Positions 499 to 26,692 of a stretch of DNA of 35,821 nucleotides are shown piece after piece. This DNA comes from Chloroflexota bacterium. Lineage in GTDB: Bacteria > Chloroflexota > Dehalococcoidia > Lucifugimonadales > UBA3495. The number at the start of each line of letters is the position of its first letter. Positions within the stretch are counted from its first letter, which is position 1. Below the pieces are notes generated by a model. That model was not told where the DNA came from, made no database searches, and saw only the letters and a list, made by a program, of their open reading frames with translations. The stretch covers positions 1 through 35,821 of the forward strand of contig VXTR01000076.1 of the NCBI GenBank assembly GCA_009837355.1, written 5' to 3'. The position numbers and the translations under genes are program-made.

Positions 499-3400
499 AT
501 GCCGCGTATTTTCGACAACCTAACTCCCGACTCCAGCCTCCTGCCCGCCTTGCAGGACACGTTGGGCATCTCGGACAGAGCCGACTTCTGCGTTGGCTAC
601 TTCAACCTGCGCGGATGGGGCGGCCTCGCGCCGTTTGTGAACGGTTGGCAACCGGAGGATGGGCCGTGCCGCGTGCTCATCGGGATGCAGCGACTCCCGC
701 ACGACGACCTCCGGCAGAGCGTCAGCCTGGTTGACGGCCCGGCCGGAATGGACAACCAGACTGCCCATCGTCTGCGGGTACAGATGGCGGAGCAACTGCG
801 CCAACAGCTGACGATGGGCGCTCCCACCAACGCCGACGAAAGGACCCTGGGGCAGTTGGCGGACCAACTCCGCGCCAAGAAAGTGGTGGTCAAGCTCTTT
901 CTGCGCCATCCCCTGCACGCCAAGCTCTACCTGCTCTACCGCGACGATCCCGTCAACCCCATCGTGGGCTACCTGGGCAGCAGCAACCTGACCTTTGCCG
1001 GTCTTGCCGGACAGGGCGAATTGAACGTGGACGTTCTCGACCACGACGCGACTCTCAAGCTTAAAGCGTGGTTTGAGGCCCGCTGGAGCGACCGCTTCTG
1101 CGTGGACGTTTCGGACGAGCTGCTCCAGATCATTGAAGAGAGCTGGGCGCGAGAGACGTTGATACCGCCCTACCACGTCTACCTCAAGATGGCCTACCAC
1201 CTTTCCCGCGAAGCCCGCGCGGGACTGGCCGAGTTCAGGATTCCCAAAGCGTTTGGCGACCGCTTGTTTGACTTCCAAGCGGCGGCCGTCAAGATAGCGG
1301 CCCACCACCTCAACCGGAGGAACGGCGTGCTGATCGGGGACGTTGTGGGGTTGGGCAAGACCCTGATGGCCACCGCGCTGGCCCGCATTTTCGAGGACGA
1401 CTACGGGCTGGAGACCCTGATCATCTGCCCGAAGAACCTGGTGCCCATGTGGGAGGACTATGCCTACCAGTACCAACTGCGGGCCAAGGTGATTTCGCTG
1501 AGCACGGTAATTGGCGAGTTGCCCACGTTGCGCCGCTATCGGCTGGTGGTAATCGACGAAAGCCACAACCTACGCAACCGGGAGGGCCGCCGCTACCGGG
1601 CCATCCAAGAATACGTCCGGGCCAACGAGAGCAAGTGCATTCTCCTATCGGCCACTCCCTACAACAAGACCTACCTGGACCTGTCCAGCCAGTTGGGAAT
1701 TTTCGTGGAGGAGGACCGGGACCTGGGCATCCGGCCGGAGCGGCTGCTTCGGGAGTTGGGGGAGGTCGAGTTCGGCAGGCGCCACCAGGCCTCGCCGCGT
1801 ACCCTGGCCGCCTTTGACTTCAGCCCGTACGCTGACGATTGGCGCGACCTGATGCGCCTGTTCCTCGTGCGCCGCACCCGGAGCTTCATACAGAACAACT
1901 ATGCGGAGACCGATGGGGAGACCGGCCGCAAGTACCTGACCTATGGGGACGGCGCGCGTTCCTACTTTCCTAACCGGGTGCCGAAGACCGTCGGGTTCGC
2001 CATTGACGATGCCGATCCCAACGACCAGTACGCGAAGCTGTACTCGGCCCAGGTGGTAGATCTGGTGAACGACCTGAGCCTGCCCAGGTACGGACTCGGC
2101 AACTATGTCGTCAAGAACCAGGCAAAACCGCCCACCGGGAATGAGAAGCGGCAGGTTGACGACCTGTCGCGGGCCGGCAAACGATTGATGGGGTTCTGCC
2201 GCACCAACCTGTTCAAGCGCCTGGAAAGCAGCGGCATGGCATTCCTGCAATCGGTGGAGCGGCACGTGCTGCGCAACTACGTTTTCCTCTACGCCATCAA
2301 GAATGGACTGCCCCTGCCCATCGGAACTCAGGATGCCGAGATGCTGGACTCCCGCTTCACCGACGAGGACGCGGACCGGGCCAAGGGGTCTCTCTTCGAC
2401 CCCGACGACGACGAGCAGGAAGAGAACGTCGAGGATACCGACCGCGCGTGGACTGCCTCCGATTTCGAAGCGCAGGCGGAACGGATTTACGCCGAGTACC
2501 GGGGCCGTTTCCACAGCCGCTTCCGGTGGCTGAGGGTTGATCTGTTCAAGAGTTCCCTGCGGGCAGACCTTCAATCGGACTCCGATGCCCTGCTCAGGCT
2601 GCTCCGGGGCTATGGGAGATGGGACCCGAACCGCGACGCCAAATTGGACGCGCTCGAACGTCTGTTGAGGGAGAGGTATCCCGACCGGAAGGTGCTGGTC
2701 TTCTCCCAGTTCGCCGACACCGTCCACTACCTGGAGGCGCAACTGAAGGCCAGGGGGATTGAGGCTATGGCCGGCGTCACGGGGAGCTCCGCCGACCCCA
2801 CGGAACTGGCGCGGCGGTTCAGTCCGGAAAGCAACCGGCGGGCCGGACGGGACGAACCCGACCAGGAACTCCGCGTGCTGGTAGCCACCGACGTGCTGAG
2901 CGAGGGCCAGAACCTCCAGGACTGCCACGTCGTGGTGAACTACGACCTGCCCTGGGCCATCATTCGCCTGATTCAACGGGCGGGCCGCGTGGACCGGATT
3001 GGCCAGAAAGCGGAGGAGATTCTGTGCCACTCGTTCCTGCCGGCCGACGGGGTTGAGCGGATCATCGACCTACGGGGAAGGGTTCGGAACCGCCTCCGGC
3101 AAAACGCCGAGGTGGTCGGCGCGGACGAGACCTTCTTTGAGGATGAGGACGATGAGCAGGCCGTCGTCAATCTCTACCACGAACGGGCCGGAGTCCTGGA
3201 CGGCGACCCCGACGGGGAGGTTGACCTGGCCTCACACGCCTACCAGATCTGGAAGAACGCGGTTGGAGCGGATCCCCGGCTGGAGAAGACGGTGGCCGAA
3301 CTGCCTGACGTTGTATTCTCCTCTCGCAGATACTTCCCCATTGCCCAGCGACCGGAGGGCGTCCTGGTATTTCTGCGCACTGCCGACGGCAACGACGCCC

Positions 3401-3891
3401 TGGCGTACGTGGACCGGGAGGGCCGGAGCATCACCGAGTCGCAGCTGGAGATACTCTCAGCGGCCGAGTGCGAGCCCGGCGCCCCGGCGCAACCTCGCCA
3501 CGAAAGCCACCACGACCTCGTTGCCCATGGCGTGCGGCGCCTGACGAGAGAGGAGAAGCGGGCCGGCGGCCAGTTGGGGCGGCCTTCCGGCGCGCGCTTC
3601 CGGACCTACACTCGACTCAGGGACTATGAAGACGCCATCAAGGGCCAACTGTTCGACGTGGAGGCTTTGCACAGGGCCATTGACGACATTTATCGCTATC
3701 CCCTGCGCCCGTCGGCGGTGGACACCCTGAACCGGCAACTGCGCAGCGGAGCGGACGACGGTCAACTGGCCGATATAGTCATGACGCTCAGGGAAGAAGA
3801 CCGGCTCTGTCTGACCACGGGGGAGGAAGAGGCGCGGGAACCCCAGATTCTCTGCTCCCTGGGCCTGTTTCAAGGGGACGACGAGGTATGA
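499..3891 (+). CDS. PLD-nuclease-like / SNF2 helicase fusion, defence-type
   Basis: 1130-residue protein predicted to translocate on or remodel DNA using ATP, acting with the methylase encoded next. The N-terminus carries one phospholipase-D-like nuclease domain (H140, K142, then GSSNLT at 160-165). A SNF2-type superfamily 2 helicase follows: Walker A GDVVGLGKT with K287, DESH at 353-356, SATPY at 384-388, and motif VI QRAGRVDRIGQ at 826-836. A roughly 290-residue C-terminal region is unassigned. An acidic stretch lies near 635-650. The ATG at 499 is preferred because the MPRIFDN start leads straight into the PLD domain, although the ribosome site is weak. The stop overlaps the methylase start by 4 bases, implying coupled translation. 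The helicase resembles DISARM DrmD in type, but here PLD and SNF2 are fused and no drmA or drmB is nearby. The defence role is inferred. Confidence 0.9.
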   Translation: MPRIFDNLTPDSSLLPALQDTLGISDRADFCVGYFNLRGWGGLAPFVNGWQPEDGPCRVLIGMQRLPHDDLRQSVSLVDGPAGMDNQTAHRLRVQMAEQLRQQLTMGAPTNADERTLGQLADQLRAKKVVVKLFLRHPLHAKLYLLYRDDPVNPIVGYLGSSNLTFAGLAGQGELNVDVLDHDATLKLKAWFEARWSDRFCVDVSDELLQIIEESWARETLIPPYHVYLKMAYHLSREARAGLAEFRIPKAFGDRLFDFQAAAVKIAAHHLNRRNGVLIGDVVGLGKTLMATALARIFEDDYGLETLIICPKNLVPMWEDYAYQYQLRAKVISLSTVIGELPTLRRYRLVVIDESHNLRNREGRRYRAIQEYVRANESKCILLSATPYNKTYLDLSSQLGIFVEEDRDLGIRPERLLRELGEVEFGRRHQASPRTLAAFDFSPYADDWRDLMRLFLVRRTRSFIQNNYAETDGETGRKYLTYGDGARSYFPNRVPKTVGFAIDDADPNDQYAKLYSAQVVDLVNDLSLPRYGLGNYVVKNQAKPPTGNEKRQVDDLSRAGKRLMGFCRTNLFKRLESSGMAFLQSVERHVLRNYVFLYAIKNGLPLPIGTQDAEMLDSRFTDEDADRAKGSLFDPDDDEQEENVEDTDRAWTASDFEAQAERIYAEYRGRFHSRFRWLRVDLFKSSLRADLQSDSDALLRLLRGYGRWDPNRDAKLDALERLLRERYPDRKVLVFSQFADTVHYLEAQLKARGIEAMAGVTGSSADPTELARRFSPESNRRAGRDEPDQELRVLVATDVLSEGQNLQDCHVVVNYDLPWAIIRLIQRAGRVDRIGQKAEEILCHSFLPADGVERIIDLRGRVRNRLRQNAEVVGADETFFEDEDDEQAVVNLYHERAGVLDGDPDGEVDLASHAYQIWKNAVGADPRLEKTVAELPDVVFSSRRYFPIAQRPEGVLVFLRTADGNDALAYVDREGRSITESQLEILSAAECEPGAPAQPRHESHHDLVAHGVRRLTREEKRAGGQLGRPSGARFRTYTRLRDYEDAIKGQLFDVEALHRAIDDIYRYPLRPSAVDTLNRQLRSGADDGQLADIVMTLREEDRLCLTTGEEEAREPQILCSLGLFQGDDEV

Positions 3892-6800
3892 CGCCGGTTG
3901 CCATTGAAGAACTTCGTCCTTTTCTACAGGGCTTTGACTTTCCCGGGCTTTTCGTCGAGGGCTTGGGGTGGAACTACCACCGGGGCGAGCCGTTGACCGT
4001 GCAAGTCAACGGACAGGATCACACGCTGACGCCCGTTGCGGAAAAGGCCGGGTTCCAGGTATTCTCCTGCTCCCCGGGCCAGGACAGCGCCATTCCCGAA
4101 TACCCGATCCGCCGCCGGATTGAGAGCCAGGTTGCCAAGAGCGCCTTTGAGCATCTGATCATCTTCGTTGACGCCAACCAGGAAAACCAGGTCTGGCAGT
4201 GGGTGAAACGCGAGGTGGGCAAACCCGCCGCCTGCCGCGAGTATGCCTACGCCTCCTCCAGCAGCGGCGTCGCCCTGCTCCAGCGCCTGCAACCCCTGTT
4301 CGTCGCCCTGGAGGAAGAAGCGTCCCTGAACATCACCCTGGTCACTTCTCGAGTCCGCGCCGCCCTAGATGTGGAGCGGGTCACCAGACGCTTCTATGAC
4401 CGCTTTCGGGCTGAGTTGACGGCCTTCGGTAACTTCGTCGAAGGCATATCGGAGCAGGGCGACCGGGACTGGTATGCGTCCCTGATGCTCAACCGGATGA
4501 TGTTCGTTTACTTCGTGCAGAAGCAGGGTTTCCTGGACGGCGACATCGACTACCTACGCAACCGCCTGAAGATGGTGCAACAGCGGAACGGCGACGGACG
4601 CTTCCAGCAGTTCTACCGCATCTTTTTGCTGCGGCTGTTCCATGAAGGGCTTGGGCAACCGGAAGGCCAGCGCGCGCCCGAGTTGGCCGCCCTGCTGGGC
4701 CGGGTGCCTTTCCTCAACGGCGGTTTGTTCGACGTTCACGACCTGGAGCGGGATTACCCGGACATCGCCATTCCCGACGAAGCCTTTGAGCGGGTCTTCG
4801 ATTTCTTCGACGGCTACCGCTGGCACTTGGACGAGCGGCCCTACCGGGAGGACAACGAGATCAACCCCGACGTGCTGGGCTACATCTTCGAGAAGTACGT
4901 CAACCAGAAGCAGATGGGGGCCTACTACACCAAGGAGGACATCACCGGCTACATCTCCCGCAACACCGTTATTCCCTTCCTGTTCGACGCGGCGAAGAGG
5001 GAATGTCCCGTAGCCTTTGGGCCGGACGGCGGCGTCTGGCGTCTCCTACAGGACAATCCTGACCGCTATATCTACCCCGCCGTCGGCCACGGCATCGCCT
5101 GGAATGCGAGACAGCCGGAAGATCCCAAGCCCTTGGATGCGCCACACGAGCTCCCTGTCGAGATTGGTGCCGGCGTAGATGACGTTTCCAAGCGCGGCGG
5201 CTGGAACCGCCCCGCTCCCGACGACTATGCCCTCCCCACCGAGACCTGGCGGGAGGTGGTCGCCCGCCGCACTCGCTACCACGAAGTCCGGGACAAGCTG
5301 GCCGTCGGCAAAGTTACCGAAATCAATGACCTCATCACCTTGAACCTGGACGTCGAGCGGTTTGCCAGGGACGTAATTGCCCAGAGCGAAGGACCGGAGC
5401 TGCTGCGCGCCTTCTGGTACGCCATGCGCGACGTGTCGGTGCTGGACCCTACCTGCGGCTCCGGCGCCTTTCTGTTCGCCGCCCTCAACATCTTGGAACC
5501 CCTCTACACCGCTTGCCTGGAGGGAATGGGGGGCTTCCTGGACGACCTGCAGCGTTCCGAGCGTCCTCACAGCCCCAATGCCCTGAGCGACTTCCGTGAC
5601 GTTCTGGCGCAGGTCGAAAGGCACCCCAGCGAGCGCTACTTCATCCTCAAGTCCATCGTCCTCAACAACCTTTACGGCGTGGACATCATGGAAGAGGCGG
5701 TGGAAATCTGCAAGTTGCGCCTCTTCCTCAAGCTGGTGGCCCAACTGGAGAGCTACGACCAGATTGAGCCGCTGCCCGACATCGACTTCAACGTGAAGGC
5801 TGGCAACACGCTGGTGGGCTTCACGTCGCTGGACGCCGTGCGCCAAGCCATGACCATTACCCCGGACGGGCAGTTGCGGGCTCTTGACGCCGAGCAGCAG
5901 CAAGTCTTGGATCAAATCGAAGCCGACGCCGGCGCCGCAAGCGAAATTTACGACCACTTTCGGCGCTACCAAATCACCCCGGACAGCGACTTGGACTCGA
6001 TCCCGAAGCAGCAAATCAAGGATGGGTTGGACAGTTTGCGAACTCGGCTGGACCGATACCAAGCCAGCCAGTACGGAATCTACCGGGATGATGGCACCGC
6101 CTACGCCAACTGGCGCGCCAGTCACCAACCCTTCCACTGGTTCGTGGAGTTCTACGGGATTATGAGCAAGGGCGGGTTTGACGTGGTGATCGGCAACCCG
6201 CCGTACGTGGAATACTCAAAGGTGAAGAAGGAGTACACAATCCGTGGATATCGCACTGAGAGTTGCGGCAACTTGTACGCTTTTGTTATGGAGCGCTGCA
6301 AGCAAATCAGCAGTGACCACAGTACCTCAAGCATGATAGTCCCCCTCAGCGGTAACAGCACTAAGCGTATGGTTCCTTTGATGCGAAACTTTTACGATAC
6401 TTACGAGTCGGTTCATTTGCAAACAATCGGCTCGGATTCGCATCCGAGCCGATTGTTTGACGGCGTGAAATTTCGCTTGGCAATTTTCGTTGTTTCAAAC
6501 CTGGGGTGCGGTACATATACGTCGCGTTATATGCGTTGGTATGCAGATGAGCGAACATGGTTGTTTGATAGGGTGGAATACGCTTCCATAGGAGAATTCC
6601 GTTATGAGACGGCGATTCCAAAGGTTTCGTGCCCTTTACACTTGAGTATTTTGGGTAAACTCGCAGCTCTCGGTGGCAAATGGAACGAATCGACCTCCCG
6701 AGATAACCGGGTACTTTACCACTCAGCACCTGTAAATTGGATCAGGGCGCACACGCTCGTTCCGTACTCGCACAGTGAGCGTGATGGGCAGAAAGCATCA

Positions 6801-7193
6801 GTAGAATTAAGGTCGCTGTTCTTCCCTAAACGAAGCTTGGGTAGCATCCAATCGATTCTCTGTTCAACTACATTCTTTTTGTGGTGGTTATTTAACTCAG
6901 ACTGCTACCATTTGAACCGCCCGGAGATCGACGCGTTTCCTCTATGCGCGTTCGACGAATTGGAAGACCTTTCAATTCGACTTGAGGAGGATATGAGGTC
7001 AAAGACCAGACGCCGAGTCTATCATTACAAGGCAACTGGCCGGGTGGAGTACGATGAATTCTACCTGAAGCTCTCCAAGCCCATTATCGACGAAGTCGAC
7101 CAAGTGCTAGCCAAGCACTACGGTTTCACCCAGGAGGAGCTGGACTTCATCATCAACTACGACATCAAGTACCGCATGGGGCGGGAGGGTTGA
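3888..7193 (+). CDS. N6-adenine DNA methyltransferase (Eco57I/PglX-like class)
   Basis: 1101-residue S-adenosylmethionine-dependent methylase expected to modify adenine in a host recognition sequence and mark self DNA for the upstream helicase. Visible features: QMGAYYTKEDITGYI near residue 345, SAM-binding motif I DPTCGSGAF at 520-528, catalytic NPPY at 770-773, then a specificity (target recognition) region at about 775-1030 and a conserved C-terminus. I see no clear PD-(D/E)XK nuclease motif in the N-terminal 300 residues, so cleavage, if any, probably lies in the PLD domain of the partner. The ATG overlaps the helicase stop (ATGA). Bases about 6210-7010 are much less GC-rich than the rest: 27 of 60 G+C at 6481-6540 against 41 of 60 at 5401-5460. 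This fits recombination of the specificity domain. Related types include DISARM DrmMI, BREX PglX and type IIG enzymes. Confidence 0.9.
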   Translation: MTPVAIEELRPFLQGFDFPGLFVEGLGWNYHRGEPLTVQVNGQDHTLTPVAEKAGFQVFSCSPGQDSAIPEYPIRRRIESQVAKSAFEHLIIFVDANQENQVWQWVKREVGKPAACREYAYASSSSGVALLQRLQPLFVALEEEASLNITLVTSRVRAALDVERVTRRFYDRFRAELTAFGNFVEGISEQGDRDWYASLMLNRMMFVYFVQKQGFLDGDIDYLRNRLKMVQQRNGDGRFQQFYRIFLLRLFHEGLGQPEGQRAPELAALLGRVPFLNGGLFDVHDLERDYPDIAIPDEAFERVFDFFDGYRWHLDERPYREDNEINPDVLGYIFEKYVNQKQMGAYYTKEDITGYISRNTVIPFLFDAAKRECPVAFGPDGGVWRLLQDNPDRYIYPAVGHGIAWNARQPEDPKPLDAPHELPVEIGAGVDDVSKRGGWNRPAPDDYALPTETWREVVARRTRYHEVRDKLAVGKVTEINDLITLNLDVERFARDVIAQSEGPELLRAFWYAMRDVSVLDPTCGSGAFLFAALNILEPLYTACLEGMGGFLDDLQRSERPHSPNALSDFRDVLAQVERHPSERYFILKSIVLNNLYGVDIMEEAVEICKLRLFLKLVAQLESYDQIEPLPDIDFNVKAGNTLVGFTSLDAVRQAMTITPDGQLRALDAEQQQVLDQIEADAGAASEIYDHFRRYQITPDSDLDSIPKQQIKDGLDSLRTRLDRYQASQYGIYRDDGTAYANWRASHQPFHWFVEFYGIMSKGGFDVVIGNPPYVEYSKVKKEYTIRGYRTESCGNLYAFVMERCKQISSDHSTSSMIVPLSGNSTKRMVPLMRNFYDTYESVHLQTIGSDSHPSRLFDGVKFRLAIFVVSNLGCGTYTSRYMRWYADERTWLFDRVEYASIGEFRYETAIPKVSCPLHLSILGKLAALGGKWNESTSRDNRVLYHSAPVNWIRAHTLVPYSHSERDGQKASVELRSLFFPKRSLGSIQSILCSTTFFLWWLFNSDCYHLNRPEIDAFPLCAFDELEDLSIRLEEDMRSKTRRRVYHYKATGRVEYDEFYLKLSKPIIDEVDQVLAKHYGFTQEELDFIINYDIKYRMGREG
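6420..6459. repeat. perfect 18-bp palindrome inside the methylase gene
   Basis: Bases 6420-6437 are the exact reverse complement of 6442-6459, separated by a 4-base loop (TCGC). The hairpin is entirely coding, covering the segment that reads TIGSDSHPSRLF, at the start of the low-GC specificity region. It could form a very stable mRNA hairpin or a cruciform. Confidence 0.9.
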
Positions 7194-9275: not shown

Positions 9276-10934
9276 TTAACCTCGGCGGCGTTCCTCGCGC
9301 ATCGTGATGAGGGCTAACGGGACCGATGAGACCGCGACAAGGAGCAGGGCAGGCGCGGCGGCGCGGGCAAAGAACGCCTCCTCCGCTGCAGCCCAGATAG
9401 AGGACGCCAGGGTGGTGAACCCGATGGGGCTCAGTATCAGGGTAGCCGGCAACTCCTTCATGGTAAGGAGGAATACCAGCGCGGCGCCCGTCAGGATCCC
9501 AGGGCGTATTAAAGAGAGCGTGATGGTGAACAGTACAGTCAGAGGAGATTTGCCGAGGCTGCGGGCGGCGTCCTCGAACTCGGGACGCACCTGAACCAGG
9601 GATGTGCGTAATGATCCGACTGCGGCCGGCAGGAACAGGGTCACGTATGCCAGCGCCAGCATCGCCAGTGATTGGTAAAGCCATGGCGCATAGTTCGCGC
9701 CAAAATAGACGAGGCCCAGCGCAATCACGATGCCGGGCAGCGCGAAGCCGATGAAACCCAGCCTTTCGAGCCAACGACTGAACAGGCCCGGGTAGCGAAC
9801 CGCCAGCACGGCGATCGGCGTGGCGCAGAGCACCGTCAGGACCGCGGCCAGGGCCGAGACACCTACCGAGTTGGCCGCCGCTCGCCAGAGCAATTCCAAC
9901 GGCTCGCCGGCCAGCACGCCCCTCACGGTCCAATATGCGAGCACTGCCACCGGCAAGCCGAGAGAAACAATCGCCACCAGGCCACAATAGAGCAAGGCGG
10001 GCCAGCGCCAGTGCCCCAGAGGGACAGGCGTGGGCAGCCGAGTTGCGCCGCCGCCGCTGAGGTAGTAGCGACCCCCGCCAGCGTTGCGGGCCACGTGCTC
10101 TCCCCACACCACTGCTAAAGCCAGCACAATCAGCCCCAGAGACCAGGCCGCCGCCAGCGTGCGGTTCAGCGCGGCGCCGTACTGGATGAATATGCTCCAG
10201 GTGAACGTCTCGTAACGCATGATGGCCACCGCTCCGAAATCGCTCAGCGCGTACAGCGCAGCGAGCAAACCGCCGGCCAGGATGGCCGGGCGCAGCATGG
10301 GAAGCGTAACGCTGGTGAAGGTCTGCCGCCGGGTGCGGCCCAGGACCCGCGCCGATTCCTCAAGGGAGGTGTCCATGTTCCACAGGGCGGCGCGGATTGG
10401 CAGCAAGACGTAGGGGAAGCTGATGATGATGAGCGTGAAAGCCGCGCCGGGAAATCCGTAAATGCTGGGAATACGGTCGATTGTTATGGAGAATGGGGCG
10501 AAGGCGGCCTCCAGCCAACCCTGCAGGATGCCTCGTGGTCCCAGGCCCACCGCAATGGCGAACCCTACGATGTAGGATGGCAGAGCCAACGGGAGCATGG
10601 TGGCAACGCGCCAAAATCCCCGGCCGGGCAGGTCGGTACGCACGGTGAGCCAGGCCAACGGAGCAGCAATCGCGATGCAGCCGATCATCACGGCAGCCAT
10701 CAACGCGACGGTGCGGACGATCACCGCAACAGTCCGTGGGCGTAAGATTAGATCGATGGCCTCTGGGCCGGCGCCCAGTGTTCTCAGGGTGAGATAGGCC
10801 GGGCCGGTGAGCAGGAGCCCGGCAATCAGCAGCGCCGGAGCCCACACGACGGCGGACGGGCGTGTCGTTCCTTCAAACAGCCACCCCAGCGGCGAGCGCG
10901 GTACCGAGCGACCCAGATCGGCTATTGAAAACAT
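9276..10934 (-). CDS. iron(III)-type ABC transporter permease, two fused domains
   Basis: 552-residue inner-membrane permease with two repeats of the binding-protein-dependent transport domain and about 12 hydrophobic segments, the layout of FbpB/ThiP-type permeases. The coupling loops that dock on the ATPase are visible as EESARVLGRTRRQTFTSVTL (first half) and EDAARSLGKSPLTVLFTITL (second half). It would move a metal (probably ferric iron) or another small ligand across the membrane, powered by the ATPase at 11840-12997. The ATG at 10934 is the first usable start after an upstream in-frame stop; no strong ribosome site is visible, so translation may be coupled to the DtxR gene 37 bases upstream. 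No substrate-binding protein gene lies in this window, so the substrate is inferred from family and from the neighbouring regulator. Confidence 0.88.
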   Translation of the reverse strand: MFSIADLGRSVPRSPLGWLFEGTTRPSAVVWAPALLIAGLLLTGPAYLTLRTLGAGPEAIDLILRPRTVAVIVRTVALMAAVMIGCIAIAAPLAWLTVRTDLPGRGFWRVATMLPLALPSYIVGFAIAVGLGPRGILQGWLEAAFAPFSITIDRIPSIYGFPGAAFTLIIISFPYVLLPIRAALWNMDTSLEESARVLGRTRRQTFTSVTLPMLRPAILAGGLLAALYALSDFGAVAIMRYETFTWSIFIQYGAALNRTLAAAWSLGLIVLALAVVWGEHVARNAGGGRYYLSGGGATRLPTPVPLGHWRWPALLYCGLVAIVSLGLPVAVLAYWTVRGVLAGEPLELLWRAAANSVGVSALAAVLTVLCATPIAVLAVRYPGLFSRWLERLGFIGFALPGIVIALGLVYFGANYAPWLYQSLAMLALAYVTLFLPAAVGSLRTSLVQVRPEFEDAARSLGKSPLTVLFTITLSLIRPGILTGAALVFLLTMKELPATLILSPIGFTTLASSIWAAAEEAFFARAAAPALLLVAVSSVPLALITMREERRRG

Positions 10935-10971
10935 CGAAAACAGGGGAGCAGCAACGTGCTCTTAACCACCG

Positions 10972-11727
10972 TCATTCGGACTCAGCCGGCCGTACGATGA
11001 TGAGCTTGGCGACGTCGTAGCCGATGGACACCCGGTCCACCTCCGTCTCCACCTGCATGACGCCCAGGTAGGGCATCGCCTCCAGGAGCGTCATCCGGCA
11101 TCCCGGCACCAACCGCGCGCCATCCAGGAACCTGAGCAATTCGGCGTTCTCTTCGGGTACGCGATCAACGACGTAAGGCACGTCGTGGGTCGCATTTTCC
11201 AGGGTTACGGATCCGGGCGTGGACCCGGCCGCGCCGCTCCCCGGAATGGGCCACCCGAATGGCGAATGGGTAGGATTGCCCAGCCGCTCCCGGAGTTTGG
11301 TTACCAGGGAGTCGGACATACCGTGCTCCAGCTGGTGCGCTTCGATATGGGCCTCGCGCAGTTCCATACCCAGCAGGCGCACTACCAGCCACTCTGCCAG
11401 GCGATGGCGCTGGGCGATGCTTGCACCCTCCTGCTGGCCCCGGTCGGTGAGGCGGATGCGTTTGTCACCGCCCACGTCAACCAGTGCCTGGTCCTGCATG
11501 CGCCGGAGCATTCCGGCCACGGAAGGGACGGAAGTCCCCAGCCCCTCGGTGGGGGGCAATTGTCGCAGGGCTTCCGTCAGTTGGGTAAGAGTGGGCGCCT
11601 CCGAGGCCTCCCACATCTTGTACAGCGACAGGAGGTAGTTCTCCGTAACCGGAGACAGCCGGTCGGCAACGTTGGGCCTGCGCTCGCGGCGGCTGGAACC
11701 GGCGGTTGTTGTCCTGGGACGCGGCAC
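10972..11727 (-). CDS. DtxR/MntR-family metal-dependent transcription regulator
   Basis: 251-residue repressor of the iron- or manganese-sensing DtxR family. The basic N-terminal tail is followed by a winged helix-turn-helix (about residues 25-90, including SVPSVAGMLRRMQDQALV), the dimerisation and metal-binding part (HRLAEWLVVRLLGM, EAHQLEHGMSD) and a C-terminal SH3/FeoA-like domain (about 175-250). It starts with GTG at 11727. It lies between the ATPase and permease genes of an ABC transporter, all on the minus strand, which supports metal-responsive control of that transporter and of itself. A candidate extended -10 promoter lies about 45 bases upstream, so it may be transcribed separately as well as from the ATPase. 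Confidence 0.88.
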   Translation of the reverse strand: MPRPRTTTAGSSRRERRPNVADRLSPVTENYLLSLYKMWEASEAPTLTQLTEALRQLPPTEGLGTSVPSVAGMLRRMQDQALVDVGGDKRIRLTDRGQQEGASIAQRHRLAEWLVVRLLGMELREAHIEAHQLEHGMSDSLVTKLRERLGNPTHSPFGWPIPGSGAAGSTPGSVTLENATHDVPYVVDRVPEENAELLRFLDGARLVPGCRMTLLEAMPYLGVMQVETEVDRVSIGYDVAKLIIVRPAESE

Positions 11728-11771
11728 GATGTATCCCGATGGCGGCGATAGTGATTGAAGTAGCCGCCCGG

Positions 11772-11780
11772 ATTATAGCA
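11772..11780 (-). promoter_or_regulatory. candidate extended -10 promoter for the DtxR gene
   Basis: On the minus strand this reads TGCTATAAT, a perfect -10 hexamer with the TGn extension, 45 bases before the GTG start of the DtxR-family gene. No clear -35 box, which extended -10 promoters can lack. The same 9-mer precedes the MFS gene at 31908-31916. Confidence 0.45.
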
Positions 11781-11839
11781 TAACGTCCCGCCTTGGCCTT
11801 TTTGCGGCAGTTTTCCGCCGCGATGTCCCTGCCCTCGCG

Positions 11840-12997
11840 TCAGCGCGACGCGGCGCTGAGTTGCTCCATATACTCGGGGGCATTGAAAAAGGCGCGCCCG
11901 CCGATGAAAGGCAGCAGCCTGTGTCCTTCCCGTGGGGATACGGCCACCCGTGTCCCGGTGTCGATATGGACAATGTGCGACATCATTACGCGCACACGGT
12001 TTCTGGAAGGCAGTTCCACCGTATAGATGTTGAACGCGCCCAGGAAGTCCTTGCTCAATACCAAGCCATTGCCCTTCTCATCCGCAGCGATGTCCACACA
12101 GTCGGGGCGAACCATCACCCGGAGCTCCCGGTCGCCGGGCCATGGCGACGGCCAGAATGACGGCCAGGCGGTTCGTCCAACCTCGCTGACGAGGTAATCC
12201 CCTTCCTGCCAGGCGGGCAGAAAGTCGGCCAAGCCGAAGAACTCCGCCGTAAACTTGGTGTCGGGATTGTGAAACACTTCTTCGGGGGTTCCGAACTGCT
12301 CGATGCGGCCTTCGTTCATCACCGCCACCCGGTCCGCAAGCTGCATCGCCTCTTCCTGGTCGTGGGTTACCCAGACCACGGTGGCTTGCCGCTCCTTCAG
12401 AATCGCCCGCACTTCGGCCCGCAGCTGTCCGCGCAGGCCGGCGTCAAGGCTGGAAAAGGGCTCGTCCATGAGTATCAGGTCGGGCGACGGGGCCAGCGCC
12501 CGCGCCAGCGCCACCCGCTGCTGCTGGCCGCCGGAAAGCTGGTAGGGATAACGATTGTCGTAGCCCTCCAGGTTCACTATGCGCAGCGCCTCGGCGGCCT
12601 TCGCCCCCCGCTGTTTCGCCCGGGGCAGGCCGAAGGCCACGTTCTGCGCCACCGTCAAGTGCGGGAACAGCGCGCCCTCCTGGAAGACCATGCCCACGCG
12701 CCGTTTTTCGGGGGCGTGGTTGACGCCCGGGCCGGACACCGGCCTTTCGTCGATGTGAATCGTTCCGGCGTCGGGGACGTCAAAGCCGGCGACCAGTCGC
12801 AGCGTGGTGGTCTTGCCGCAGCCGCTGGGGCCCAACAGGCACAGAATCTCGCCGCGGGCCACGTTGAGGCTCACGTCGGCGACCGCCGCCACGTCCCCGA
12901 AGGACTTGGACAGGCCCGACAACCGCAGGGCGCTGCGCCCGGAGACCGGAGCGGTTGCCCCAGGCTGCGTTCTATCGTTAGAAGAGACGAGCGTCAT
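11840..12997 (-). CDS. ABC transporter ATP-binding protein, iron(III)/FbpC-like
   Basis: 385-residue cytoplasmic ATPase that energises the permease encoded downstream. All nucleotide-binding motifs are intact: Walker A GPSGCGKTTT, signature LSGGQQQRVALARAL, Walker B LILMDEPFSSLD and the switch histidine in VTHDQEEAM. A C-terminal TOBE-like domain (about 275-385) is typical of the FbpC/PotA/ThiQ group. The FbpC-type reading is favoured by the fused two-domain permease and the DtxR regulator in the same transcription unit. ATG start at 12997; no clear Shine-Dalgarno, so the message may have a very short leader. It is the first gene of the minus-strand set ATPase, regulator, permease. Confidence 0.9.
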   Translation of the reverse strand: MTLVSSNDRTQPGATAPVSGRSALRLSGLSKSFGDVAAVADVSLNVARGEILCLLGPSGCGKTTTLRLVAGFDVPDAGTIHIDERPVSGPGVNHAPEKRRVGMVFQEGALFPHLTVAQNVAFGLPRAKQRGAKAAEALRIVNLEGYDNRYPYQLSGGQQQRVALARALAPSPDLILMDEPFSSLDAGLRGQLRAEVRAILKERQATVVWVTHDQEEAMQLADRVAVMNEGRIEQFGTPEEVFHNPDTKFTAEFFGLADFLPAWQEGDYLVSEVGRTAWPSFWPSPWPGDRELRVMVRPDCVDIAADEKGNGLVLSKDFLGAFNIYTVELPSRNRVRVMMSHIVHIDTGTRVAVSPREGHRLLPFIGGRAFFNAPEYMEQLSAASR

Positions 12998-13804: not shown

Positions 13805-14959
13805 TCAGACGTATAGCCGATTCAGATTGGCGAGTCGTTGGGGATCGAGGTCTCGGCCGGCCAGGGCGGGATGGTCGGGACCGTACCGGTGGGCACGAAA
13901 TACGGAGTTGGCCTGGCCCGTGATGGAACCGCCCACGCCGAATCCGCTCTGCCCCATGAAGGGATTGATGTACTCCCATACGATTTCTTTGGCGGGTGTC
14001 ACCTCGAAGATGCGGCCCGGGGCGCCCTCGCAGATGAGCGTGTTGCCGTTGGGCAGCCGTTCCGCTCCGCTGATGTGGTAGCTGTAGAAGGATATGGGCG
14101 GGTCGCCCCGGTATTCCCAGGCAACCTCATTCGTAGCGGGATCCACCTCAATGACCCGCGAGTGGGTGAAGTCTCGCTTGTGCGGCCCGTTGTCGAAGAG
14201 AAGCACGTTCCCGTTGGCCAGCATCGTCGGATGATGCTGGCGTGAGATATGGCCGGGGCCCCACTTCCAGCGGAACTCGCCGCTGGCTTTGTCGACAATG
14301 CCCACCGTATCGGTCTGTCGGAAACTGACCAGCAAGTCCCCTTCAGGCGTAACGTTGAGGGCGTTCTGGTGTGTCCATTCGCCGCGACCTTCGGGGAGGC
14401 CGATCCGGTCCTCTTCCGGGTCCAGGTATTCCCACGATATCCATTCGTACACGATGTCGCCCGCCGGCGTGATCTCGCGTACGACGTCGCCGAGCATACC
14501 CGGGGCCTCGCCGTCAGCAAGCCCGCCTTGCACCCGCCGCGAGATGTCCTCGGGGATGATTTCCCACGCCAGCACGAGGGTGTTGCCGTTGGGCAAACGT
14601 TCGAAATCGTGGTGCAACAGCGGATACCGGTACTCCCAGACCACGTTGCTGTCCCAGTCCAGCTCCAGGATGGCGCCGGACGCCGTTCGACCGCCCCGGG
14701 GCAGCAATTCTAAAGCCGGATGCTGCTGGAACGAGACTTCTTGTCCAGCAGGGCCGGTGCGCAGCAGCAGGTTGCCATTGGGGAGCAGATAAGAGTAGCT
14801 GATGCCCTGGTCACAATTCCATCTATGGCAGATCCGGCCCTCCATATCGATGAGACGCGATTCATGGCTGTTGAGGTTGGTGACCAGGGTGTAGCCCCGG
14901 TAGGCCTGACGGGGCGCGTAGTGAATCAGGCCGTTCGGATGGTTGTTGGACCAGCCCAT
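13805..14959 (-). CDS. arylsulfotransferase-like beta-propeller protein
   Basis: 384-residue protein of the arylsulfotransferase (ASST/Arylsulfotran_2) type. It contains repeated propeller-blade motifs: LLPNGNLLL, RLPNGNTLVL, MLANGNVLLFD and RLPNGNTLI, each followed by a WEYR or WEY strand. No signal peptide is seen, so a cytoplasmic location is likely. Members transfer sulfate between phenolic compounds or are uncharacterised; the exact reaction here is unknown. The start chosen is the ATG at 14959 (MGWSNNHPNG), preceded by AGGAG about 8 bases upstream. A longer frame to 15184 would run through the promoter and leader of the divergent gene and is rejected. Confidence 0.82.
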   Translation of the reverse strand: MGWSNNHPNGLIHYAPRQAYRGYTLVTNLNSHESRLIDMEGRICHRWNCDQGISYSYLLPNGNLLLRTGPAGQEVSFQQHPALELLPRGGRTASGAILELDWDSNVVWEYRYPLLHHDFERLPNGNTLVLAWEIIPEDISRRVQGGLADGEAPGMLGDVVREITPAGDIVYEWISWEYLDPEEDRIGLPEGRGEWTHQNALNVTPEGDLLVSFRQTDTVGIVDKASGEFRWKWGPGHISRQHHPTMLANGNVLLFDNGPHKRDFTHSRVIEVDPATNEVAWEYRGDPPISFYSYHISGAERLPNGNTLICEGAPGRIFEVTPAKEIVWEYINPFMGQSGFGVGGSITGQANSVFRAHRYGPDHPALAGRDLDPQRLANLNRLYV

Positions 14960-14999
14960 GCTGTTGCTCCTGCTACGTATTTGGCGCGAGCGCGGGCGG

Positions 15000-15005
15000 T
15001 ATAAT
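15000..15005 (+). promoter_or_regulatory. candidate -10 box for the DUF1801 gene
   Basis: Perfect TATAAT on the plus strand in the divergent gap between the arylsulfotransferase-like gene and the DUF1801 gene. The 10-mer GCGGTATAAT occurs again at 18501-18510 before the CDF transporter gene. No convincing -35 box. Confidence 0.4.
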
Positions 15006-15077
15006 ACCCCGGACGAGGGACGGGAGCATAGCAAGGTGACCAATTGGACCAATACGCACTGGTTGGGGGTGAATGGT

Positions 15078-15545
15078 ATGGCAGGCGGTGGGCGCAGGAG
15101 GGCAACTGGGGATGTTCCGAAGGCGGGGGACGGCTCCGGCGGCGAGGTGAAGCTGCTGTCGGGCGGGAATCCGCAGATTGCCAAGGCGGACGGCGACGCT
15201 CCGGTGCAGGCTTACATCGCGGCGATGCCGGGCTGGAAAAGCGAGGTGGGTCGCCGCATCGACGACCTCATCGTGAGCAACGTGCCCGACGTGCGCAAGG
15301 CCGTCCGGTGGAACTCGCCCTGGTACGGCGTTGAGGGCGAGGGCTGGTTCGTGAGCTACCACGTCTTCACCCGCTACGTGAAGGTTACCTTCCTCAACGG
15401 GGCCGCGCTGAGTCCGGTTCCGCCCGGCGGCGGCAAGGACCCCGATGCGCGTTGGGTCGATATTTACGAAGGCGCGCTGGACGAGGAACAGCTGGTGGAT
15501 TGGGTTCGACAGGCCGCTGCGCTGCCGGGCTGGAAGGGATTTTGA
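15078..15545 (+). CDS. DUF1801-domain protein
   Basis: 155-residue protein of the DUF1801 family (YdhG/YjhX-like fold), function unknown in the family. The conserved core is clear: DGDAPVQAYIAAMPGWK, VPDVRKAVRWNSPWYG, GWFVSYHVFTRYVKVTF and the C-terminal WVRQAAALPGWKGF. The start is uncertain: ATG 15078 has a GGGGGTGA site about 7 bases upstream, while an in-frame GTG at 15036 with GGGAG upstream would add 14 residues. The frame continuing to 14943 overlaps the promoter region and is too long. It is transcribed divergently from the arylsulfotransferase-like gene and ends 9 bases before the convergent FAD oxidase. Confidence 0.85.
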   Translation: MAGGGRRRATGDVPKAGDGSGGEVKLLSGGNPQIAKADGDAPVQAYIAAMPGWKSEVGRRIDDLIVSNVPDVRKAVRWNSPWYGVEGEGWFVSYHVFTRYVKVTFLNGAALSPVPPGGGKDPDARWVDIYEGALDEEQLVDWVRQAAALPGWKGF

Positions 15546-24288: not shown

Positions 24289-24772
24289 GGCGTTACCTCC
24301 GACGGGGAGAACTCACATGGACGGGGAGGATGAAGGGGATGGCGGCTTGTTGGATTGGGAAAAGGGCGATTTCCCACTCGTATCCTCTCATTTCCTCTAA
24401 TCCACGCAGGGGATGGAGTGAATGGTGAAAGGCGAATGGTGGTGAATTGGGTGGTTTGGAGGTGGAAATGCATGGTTTTGACGGGTCGGTGATAGGGTTT
24501 GGAAGGTCGATGTTGCGATGTTTGGACGTGGGTATAGGATGGCTCTGGGCTTGGGTGGCAGGATGTATTTGGGCACTGACCAACATAGTACATGCGTGCG
24601 AACAGGGAGGTCAAGGGGGAAGTGTCATGCGATTGTAGTCTGCCGGAGGCGAGGAAGTTATAGGGACAGGGACAATCGAAAAGGCTCTAGTTGGGACGGC
24701 GGCGATGGACGGAGGGCGGCGGCTTTGCTAGACTGTCCGGCGCAAGCGGCATCACTCATGGAGGCGGCAGCG
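24289..24772. other. 484-base gene-free region with strong strand bias
   Basis: No convincing gene. From about 24310 to 24560 the plus strand is rich in G and T with few C (many GGTG, GGATGG and TTGG runs), unlike its surroundings. The minus-strand frames are Pro/His/Ser-rich low-complexity strings and are not believed to be proteins. It holds the promoter of the divergent P450 and THI5-like genes and perhaps a dispersed non-coding element. Confidence 0.4.
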
Positions 24773-25690
24773 ATGAAGAAAGTTGTGAGCGAAATCAGCG
24801 GCGTGGTTTTCAGCCTGCCCTGGCTGGTGGCCAAGGACGAAGGGCTGTTTGAGGCCGAGGGCATCGACATGGAGTTCGTTCGGGCGCTGAACAGCGGCAA
24901 GGTTACGCCCACCGAGAACCCCGAGGACGTGAATCCGATCCTGGGCCACGTGGCGTTTGAGGACGCGCAGGTGGCAATCTACCGCGCTTGAGAGGAGGGG
25001 CAGGTCCGTCGGGCCTACGAAAGCAAACAGGGCGCGCGCATCATCGCGCTGCGTTCGGCCGTGGCCACGCAAGCCATAATGGTGCGTCCCGACTCTACCC
25101 ACTACTATCCCGGCACGCTGGGCAACAAGCCGGTGGCGGTGCAGTTCCACGCCGGCTCCCACTACGTCGCCCTGCGGCTGCTGTCGGGCTATCTGCCGGA
25201 GGAAAAGCTGAAGCTGGTTCACTATGGCTCGCCGCAGTTCCGGTTTGAGGCGATGATGAAGGGCGAAGTGGAAGCCGCCGCGCTGATGGAGCCGTGGATT
25301 ACGCTGGCCGAAAAGCTGGGCTGCCGCGCCGTCTGCGAGGGGCACTACCTGGGCGCCGAGAACGCCAGCGACAACATGGACGAGGAAACCTTCGCCGCCA
25401 TCAACCGGGCCATCGTCAAGGCGGTGAACCTGATTAACGACGACAAGCGAAAGTATCTCCACTACCTCATCGAGGAACCGCGCTTCGCAGCAGCGGCGGC
25501 GCAGCACGGCGGCATTACGCCGGAGGACTTTCACCTGCCGCGCCTGCGCTACTCGTACAACACGCCCTACACCGACGAGATAGTGGAGGACACCTACCAC
25601 TGGATGGTGCGCTGGGGTCTGCTGGACGGGGCGGCGTGCAGCAACGAACTGGTGGACAACCGGATGGCCGAGCCGGCCGCCGCCGATTAG
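24773..25690 (+). pseudogene. THI5/NMT1-like protein interrupted by an in-frame TGA
   Basis: One reading frame of 306 codons with a single TGA at 24989-24991 (codon 73). Both sides belong to one protein: VVSEISGVVFSLPWLVAKDEG and DAQVAIYRA before it, EEGQVRRAYES and ALMEPWITLAEKLGC after it. This is the THI5/NMT1-like periplasmic-binding fold, but without a signal peptide. ATG 24773 is chosen for a GGAGG site 8 bases upstream. From memory, relatives carry Cys where the TGA stands, so this is either a TGC-to-TGA nonsense mutation or selenocysteine. A 6-bp hairpin follows 10 bases later (25002-25016). The rest shows no further damage, which favours a recent mutation, recoding or a sequencing error over old decay. 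The epimerase gene follows 21 bases downstream. Confidence 0.7.
25002..25016 (+). promoter_or_regulatory. hairpin just after the in-frame TGA, SECIS candidate
   Basis: AGGTCC (25002-25007) pairs with GGGCCT (25011-25016), including one G-U pair, around a GTC loop. Sixteen bases separate the TGA from the loop, and the loop starts with G. This is at the edge of what I recall for bacterial selenocysteine insertion elements. A short stem like this can arise by chance in GC-rich DNA. Confidence 0.25.
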
Positions 25691-25711: not shown

Positions 25712-26692
25712 ATGGCAACCCTGGTAACCGGAGGCGTTGGCTTTGTGGGGGCCAACATCGTGAAGGAGCTGGCGGCACGCGGGCACGACGTGGTGAGCCT
25801 GGACGTGCTGCCGCCCGATGGGCTGATGCAGGGATTCCTGGGGGACCTGGCCGGCCGGGTCGAGTTCGTCACCGGAGACATCCTGGACGCGGCGGGGCTG
25901 GACGCGCTGCGCACCAGCCACGGGTTCGACAAGGTGGTGCACGCCGCCGTGTTCACCGTGAACCGCACCGACCTGGAAACCGCGCGCAGCAAGGACATCC
26001 TGGACATCAACCTGACCGGCACGGGAAACCTGCTGGAACTGGCGCGGGTGTCGGGCGTGGAACGGTTCGTGTACATCAGCTCGGGCGCAGCCTACGGACT
26101 GTGCCGGGAGCCGGACCAGACCTACAACGAGGACGACGCGCCGCAGCCGGAGAACCTGTACGGCATCACCAAGCTGGCGAGCGAGGGCCTGGCCCGGCGC
26201 TACGGGCAGCTGCATGGCTTCAGCAGCGTAAGCCTGCGCCTCAGCACCCCATACGGCCCAATGGAACGGGTTACGGGGCACCGGGGCAATATGTCCACGC
26301 CGTACCAGTGGACGGGGCAGATGCTGCGGGGCGAGGCCATCGCGCTGGATAACACCGACTACGGCCGGGATTACACCTACGTGCTGGACACGGCGGCGGC
26401 GGTTGCCACGGTGGTGGACGCGCCACGTCTGCCTCACGATCTCTACAACGTTACCAACGAGATGCCGGTTACCGGCGAGCGGATTCAGCGCACGCTGGCT
26501 GAGCTATTCCCGGAAACGCGGCTGGTGGCGTCGGACGCGGATGATTCTGCCGGAAGCTCGTTGGGGCCAACGCGGGGGCCGTTGTCGGGCTATCGGTTGT
26601 GGCACGACCTGGGCTGGACGGCGCAGTACGACCTGGCGTCGGGCCTGGCCGATTACGTGCGCTGGCGAAGGGAGTCGGGGTTTCTGGACTAG
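25712..26692 (+). CDS. NAD-dependent epimerase/dehydratase (extended SDR)
   Basis: 326-residue Rossmann-fold enzyme of the extended short-chain dehydrogenase family. It has the nucleotide-binding motif TGGVGFVG (residues 6-13), the DILDINLTGTGNLLELAR helix, the catalytic serine region YISSGAAYG and the YGITK Tyr-Lys pair. It likely acts on a nucleotide sugar or related hydroxy-ketone; the substrate cannot be told from sequence. It follows the THI5-like gene by 21 bases, so both may be one operon. Its last 75 bases are duplicated at 27359-27433. Confidence 0.9.
   Translation: MATLVTGGVGFVGANIVKELAARGHDVVSLDVLPPDGLMQGFLGDLAGRVEFVTGDILDAAGLDALRTSHGFDKVVHAAVFTVNRTDLETARSKDILDINLTGTGNLLELARVSGVERFVYISSGAAYGLCREPDQTYNEDDAPQPENLYGITKLASEGLARRYGQLHGFSSVSLRLSTPYGPMERVTGHRGNMSTPYQWTGQMLRGEAIALDNTDYGRDYTYVLDTAAAVATVVDAPRLPHDLYNVTNEMPVTGERIQRTLAELFPETRLVASDADDSAGSSLGPTRGPLSGYRLWHDLGWTAQYDLASGLADYVRWRRESGFLD
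26618..26692 (+). repeat. 75-bp direct repeat, copy 1 (epimerase 3' end)
   Basis: The last 25 codons of the epimerase, including its TAG. Identical at 69 of 75 positions to 27359-27433, 741 bases downstream. Confidence 0.92.

Follow-up and report, generated by a model that had tools for sequence, protein, structure and literature searches.

How the single in-frame TGA codon of a THI5/NMT1-like gene is read is the question raised by a 35,821 nt stretch of DNA from a Chloroflexota bacterium (termed the window in the following). The open reading frame extends on the plus strand from an ATG at position 24773 to a TAG that ends at position 25690, and translation of the frame reveals one internal stop, the TGA at 24989-24991, which occupies the place of residue 73. 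A ribosome-binding site, GGAGG, can be read directly from the sequence on the same strand (24760-24764), with the ATG 8 nt downstream. In the initial annotation the gene had been described as free of any defect apart from the TGA, which agrees with the occurrence of only one stop in a frame of 305 codons, and the TGA itself had been left as either a nonsense mutation or a codon for selenocysteine (Sec). By all computational tests used, the gene is predicted to encode a new family of selenoproteins, a reading to which we assign a probability of about 92%.

Gene and reading frame

A check of the gene ends shows that no fewer than seven further genes of the window terminate with TGA, in keeping with what had been claimed before, and general recoding of TGA is thus excluded. 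A gene for an NAD-dependent epimerase/dehydratase follows on the plus strand (25712-26692) and is possibly co-transcribed. A conserved operon was considered and rejected, because neither this downstream epimerase nor the P450 encoded upstream turned out to be a conserved neighbour when gene neighbourhoods were compared. Further genes of the window include two large adjoining ones (499-7193) encoding an SNF2/DEAD helicase with a PLD domain and an Eco57I/MmeI-type methylase, a pair that probably represents a restriction-modification or phage-defence system. A gene of the arylsulfotransferase (ASST) family is situated on the minus strand (13805-15184) near ABC transporter genes (9276-12997).

Selenocysteine machinery of the source genome

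The source genome (3.25 Mb, 89 contigs) contains a tRNA-Sec scoring above the Rfam cut-off, the anticodon UCA of which was confirmed by ARAGORN, as well as SelA (457 bits), SelB (355 bits vs. a cut-off of 242) and SelD (382 bits). A lack of this machinery had been named in the initial annotation as an argument against selenocysteine; selA, selB, selD and tRNA-Sec are all present. The selD gene (L157:1478-2528) bears an in-frame TGA of its own near the start in the context HCAG-U-AAK, followed by a hairpin GGACCU...AGGUCC. SelD is a known selenoprotein family and the SelD of the source genome thus serves as an internal positive control.

As tRNA-Sec occurs in nearly all relatives from the order, be it with or without the window gene, co-occurrence of the two carries little weight. 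Several of the TGA-bearing genomes do not yield a clear match for tRNA-Sec, and these are incomplete MAGs. Four near-complete relatives (G003, G007, G014 and G025) possess tRNA-Sec and SelA and lack the window gene, so that the Sec machinery there must be kept for other selenoproteins.

Conservation of the TGA codon among close relatives

In 50 genomes from the same bacterial family as the source, we found 35 intact copies of the gene, one each in 30 of the genomes and a second paralogue in five of these 30. All of them contain a single TGA at the Sec codon and none encodes cysteine or another residue at this place. The non-redundant set comprises 35 distinct sequences from SAR202/Dehalococcoidia Chloroflexota that are 67-95% identical to the window protein, again with TGA in 35/35. 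One copy (L110), which is located at a contig end and features a second TGA eight codons upstream, was excluded from this set.

These data bear on the possibility of a pseudogene in which the TGA arose by nonsense mutation or by an error of assembly. The frame is indeed interrupted, the assembly is fragmented, and a genuinely decayed copy exists: in one genome, found twice (L080 and L107), the gene has TAA in place of TGA and has also suffered an internal deletion, which is the pattern expected of decay. Such an explanation is at odds with the recurrence of the very same TGA across the family, in 35 intact and mutually distinct copies whose genomes were assembled separately; these copies take the place of the read support that had been asked for in the initial annotation. 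Purifying selection speaks against it as well, being equal on either side of the TGA (median pN/pS of 0.28 before and 0.26 after the codon). The sequences thereby indicate that protein-level constraint does not differ between the stretches before and after the TGA, and we regard a pseudogene or an assembly error as the least probable of all explanations, with hardly any likelihood left to it.

Cysteine homologues and evolution of the family

All 29 distinct homologues of 28-48% identity have cysteine at the aligned codon, mostly within the sequence CEWG. They span Chloroflexota of other families (L160-L162), Alphaproteobacteria (L153, L154), a cyanobacterium (L155) and a haloarchaeon (L156). 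A YRACEWG motif with cysteine at this site had been put forward in the initial annotation, and it is literally found in homologues such as L160 and L153; the alignment at this codon that had been advised there gives cysteine in 29/29 distant and TGA in 35/35 close homologues. When Sec is written as C in an alignment of 23 rows, the residue at the site is invariant and the subsequent Glu, Gly and Arg are nearly so. In a maximum-likelihood tree, the 22 Sec sequences from SAR202 make up one clade with a support of 100, beside cysteine homologues of other groups.

It could be argued that the UGA simply terminates translation, giving rise to a peptide of 72 residues, and that an internal start yields a separate product from the sequence downstream. 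An open reading frame with a GTG start that would serve this purpose exists (25061-25690). The cysteine homologues, however, are all continuous across the site, and with two separate products nothing would maintain TGA over TAA or TAG at residue 73, nor the codons of the hairpin described below. Split translation therefore appears highly improbable.

A 34%-identical sequence from another Chloroflexota family (L163:1501-2376, corresponding to G258:C194:21662-22537) also features a TGA in frame at this position, within LFQG-TGA-ECGNNRR, and its genome yields two matches for tRNA-Sec above the cut-off. The hairpin 3' of this TGA fails the bacterial SECIS model, being too close to the TGA. In the tree, L163 is placed among the cysteine sequences, as a single sequence on a long branch, and Sec thus probably arose twice. 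A second, independent change from Cys to Sec within Chloroflexota is probable on the basis of this sequence and is taken here as a lead rather than as a finding.

The putative SECIS element

A hairpin of 6 bp that begins 10 bases past the TGA, with a loop starting in G at a distance of 16 bases, had been noted at the outset and was recovered exactly. The apical hairpin of the putative SECIS (25002-25016, plus strand) is formed by the stem AGGUCC/GGGCCU, in which positions 25002-25007 pair with 25011-25016, and by the loop GUC (25008-25010). According to the model for bacterial SECIS elements (PMC13188914), a loop of 3-9 nt with a G in its first two positions sits on a stem of 4-16 bp and is separated from the UGA by 16-37 nt. 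With a loop of 3 nt, a stem of 6 bp, G in first position and a UGA-loop distance of 16 nt, the latter at the lower edge of the range, the window hairpin fits the model in every respect.

Codon usage provides a second line of evidence. Among the 112 alignment columns with an invariant residue, seven are without any codon variation across the 35 sequences. Six of these seven are codons 72 and 77-81, which surround the TGA and extend into the hairpin. They fall within the nine invariant-residue columns of codons 72-81, an enrichment with a hypergeometric p of 2.4e-7 when shared ancestry is ignored. The hairpin codons are unchanged at synonymous sites in 35/35 relatives, the hairpin is present in 0/29 cysteine homologues, and those homologues that encode GQVRR or GQIRR choose other codons. 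As far as sequence comparison can tell, this synonymous-site constraint is stronger evidence for a SECIS than the fit to the model. A second patch of unusual synonymous conservation is located at 25358-25378 (codons 196-202), where all 35 sequences use AGC for codon 199.

Covariation in the apical stem received no support from the 35 sequences; the stem is free of any variation and covariation is uninformative for this reason. The folding energy of the hairpin is not significantly better than that of shuffled sequence. In a wider SECIS region (24986-25024, plus strand), a lower helix may be formed by GCUU (24986-24989), which includes the U of the UGA, and RAGY (25021-25024). Here, 100% of the cells in the alignment are paired, the two variable pairs exhibit only changes from G-C to G-U and from U-A to U-G and none that is two-sided, and the score is equalled by shuffled controls, so that this helix as a part of the SECIS is suggestive only.

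Near-cognate tRNAs can read through UGA, and it is conceivable in principle that tryptophan, cysteine or another standard amino acid is inserted at residue 73 without any involvement of selenium. Against this stand the complete Sec machinery, the presence of a correctly spaced SECIS-like hairpin, the fact that homologues have cysteine and nothing else at the site, and the use of TGA as a regular stop in other genes. We consider such readthrough very unlikely. The choice between nonsense mutation and selenocysteine posed by the initial annotation is consequently decided in favour of selenocysteine by the machinery, the cysteine homologues, the family-wide TGA and the conserved hairpin that is limited to this lineage.

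Conservation and gene content point at the following route to the selenoprotein. SelA and SelD would produce Sec-tRNA(UCA) with selenophosphate as the source, SelB would bind the hairpin at 25002-25016 and deliver the Sec-tRNA to the ribosome at the UGA at 24989, and the full protein of 305 residues would result.

Protein family, fold and possible role

Similarity of the predicted selenoprotein to the Pfam families NMT1/NMT1_2 (PF09084, PF13379) is weak and stays below the curated cut-offs (21.7 vs. 24.7 bits, and 19.0 vs. 20.5 bits in the case of PF09084), and PF09084 is matched at an E value of 0.01 or better by 19 of 23 family members. At an E value of 0.01, a scan against NCBIfam returned TIGR01728 only (22 bits vs. 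a cut-off of 163.5), with the models for SaoX (NF040735) and SaoB (NF040727) unmatched. A sequence search of the PDB with the protein alone gave nothing meaningful, while sulfonate- and nitrate-binding proteins as well as Thi5 were found with a profile. The predicted structure (mean pLDDT of 67) exhibits an NMT1/THI5/SsuA-like substrate-binding-protein fold and matches SsuA (Z 16.6), CmpA/NrtA, Thi5 (Z about 13), DszB (Z 12.5) and MqnD (Z 12.2). Residue 1 of the model aligns with residue 28 of SsuA and a signal peptide therefore appears to be missing. Conserved adjacent genes for a transporter (permease/ATPase) are absent from the neighbourhoods compared, and our search for relatives in phages or viral contigs yielded none.

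By analogy with Thi5, DszB and MqnD, we somewhat favour the view that the protein is a cytoplasmic enzyme built on the substrate-binding-protein fold. Sec73 may reside in the active site or ligand cleft, in a region where the model is too uncertain for placement (pLDDT about 30). There, its role as the reactive residue would be that of a nucleophile, a proton donor or a redox centre, with a small organic or organosulfur molecule as the substrate. It is also possible, with a clearly lower though still appreciable probability, that the selenoprotein is not an enzyme at all and serves in the cytoplasm as a binding protein or sensor, with Sec73 as a ligand for a metal or metalloid or for a compound of selenium or sulfur. 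The top structural matches are binding proteins for transport, and both SaoX and SaoB are selenoproteins that function as binding subunits in ABC transport, with a role of Sec as a metal ligand having been proposed for SaoB (PMC13188914). The apparent lack of a signal peptide and of a conserved adjacent transporter argues against a binding or sensor function, as does the failure of the SaoX and SaoB models to match.

For the enzyme, the gene neighbourhoods offer candidate partners. Genes for luciferase-like flavin monooxygenases recur upstream in many loci outside the genus of the window (L058-L081), and the proteins encoded alongside in these relatives possibly cooperate with the Sec enzyme. 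SAR202 genomes can encode over 100 such monooxygenases (PMC6946804), and because of this abundance their adjacency to the Sec gene is weak evidence. Genes for SppA and MazG recur downstream in some relatives. SAR202 bacteria have been reported as users of organosulfur compounds (PMC5864207), and involvement of the protein in C-S or related chemistry is a reasonable guess but no more. Going further, it is a speculative and rather unlikely scenario that recalcitrant organic compounds, perhaps organosulfur ones, are cleaved or reduced in the cytoplasm of SAR202 by the Sec enzyme together with luciferase-like flavin monooxygenases, with cysteine having been changed to Sec at least twice in Chloroflexota. 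If this were true, it would constitute a Sec-dependent enzyme in the periplasmic-binding-protein fold, where the selenoproteins of the published inventory are transport subunits.

Comparison with known systems

In its main text, an inventory from 2026 that lists 119 families of prokaryotic selenoproteins (PMC13188914) does not contain an NMT1/THI5-like family. The ABC substrate-binding type is represented there by two entries, SaoX and SaoB, which carry different motifs. The passages searched in the GOS and deep-Sep papers hold nothing similar, and in the part of the literature accessible to searching, none was found that links 'selenoprotein' with SAR202, and 'selenocysteine' co-occurs with SAR202 by single mentions only. 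The family may have been recognized independently elsewhere. It would add to the inventory a selenoprotein family with a fold that seldom contains selenium, from a host lineage, SAR202, that is credited with the degradation of recalcitrant organic matter in the deep ocean. Gene callers that stop at TGA are expected to split or discard the gene in every such genome, and a conserved reactive Cys/Sec in proteins annotated merely as ABC transporter substrate-binding makes their real function testable.

Among characterized proteins of this fold, SsuA/TauA sulfonate-binding proteins (TIGR01728) comprise the closest solved structure and share weak sequence similarity with the window protein, the score of which is far under the curated cut-off. 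They differ in being periplasmic transport proteins with a signal peptide. SaoX and SaoB resemble the window protein as Sec-containing proteins of the substrate-binding type, yet they are annotated as ABC transporter subunits and their Sec motifs are UxP and CUxxT. THI5/NMT1 HMP-P synthase (PF09084) shares the fold and a cytoplasmic location. The active-site motif of this enzyme is CCCFC, and such a motif is not encountered in the window translation.

The 2'-hydroxybiphenyl-2-sulfinate desulfinase DszB has the same fold as well and is a cytoplasmic enzyme with an essential cysteine. In DszB, Cys27 is catalytic and the substrate is anchored by His60, Arg70 and Gly73 (PMC12168087). The window protein differs in that it does not contain any cysteine within residues 1-72, and the reactive residue is predicted to be residue 73. 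Sec73 is located at a sequence distance similar to that of the anchoring residues, and His59, Arg71 and Sec73 may overlap with His60, Arg70 and Gly73 of DszB in a part of the model that is unreliable.

Compared with bacterial selenoproteins that depend on a bSECIS, the window protein lacks a redox CxxU or UxxC motif and a thioredoxin fold, its motif being YRA-U-EEGQVRR. With these selenoproteins, SelD of the same genome among them, it nevertheless has in common an in-frame UGA at the site of a cysteine, a hairpin with a small loop that starts with G, and the Sec machinery.
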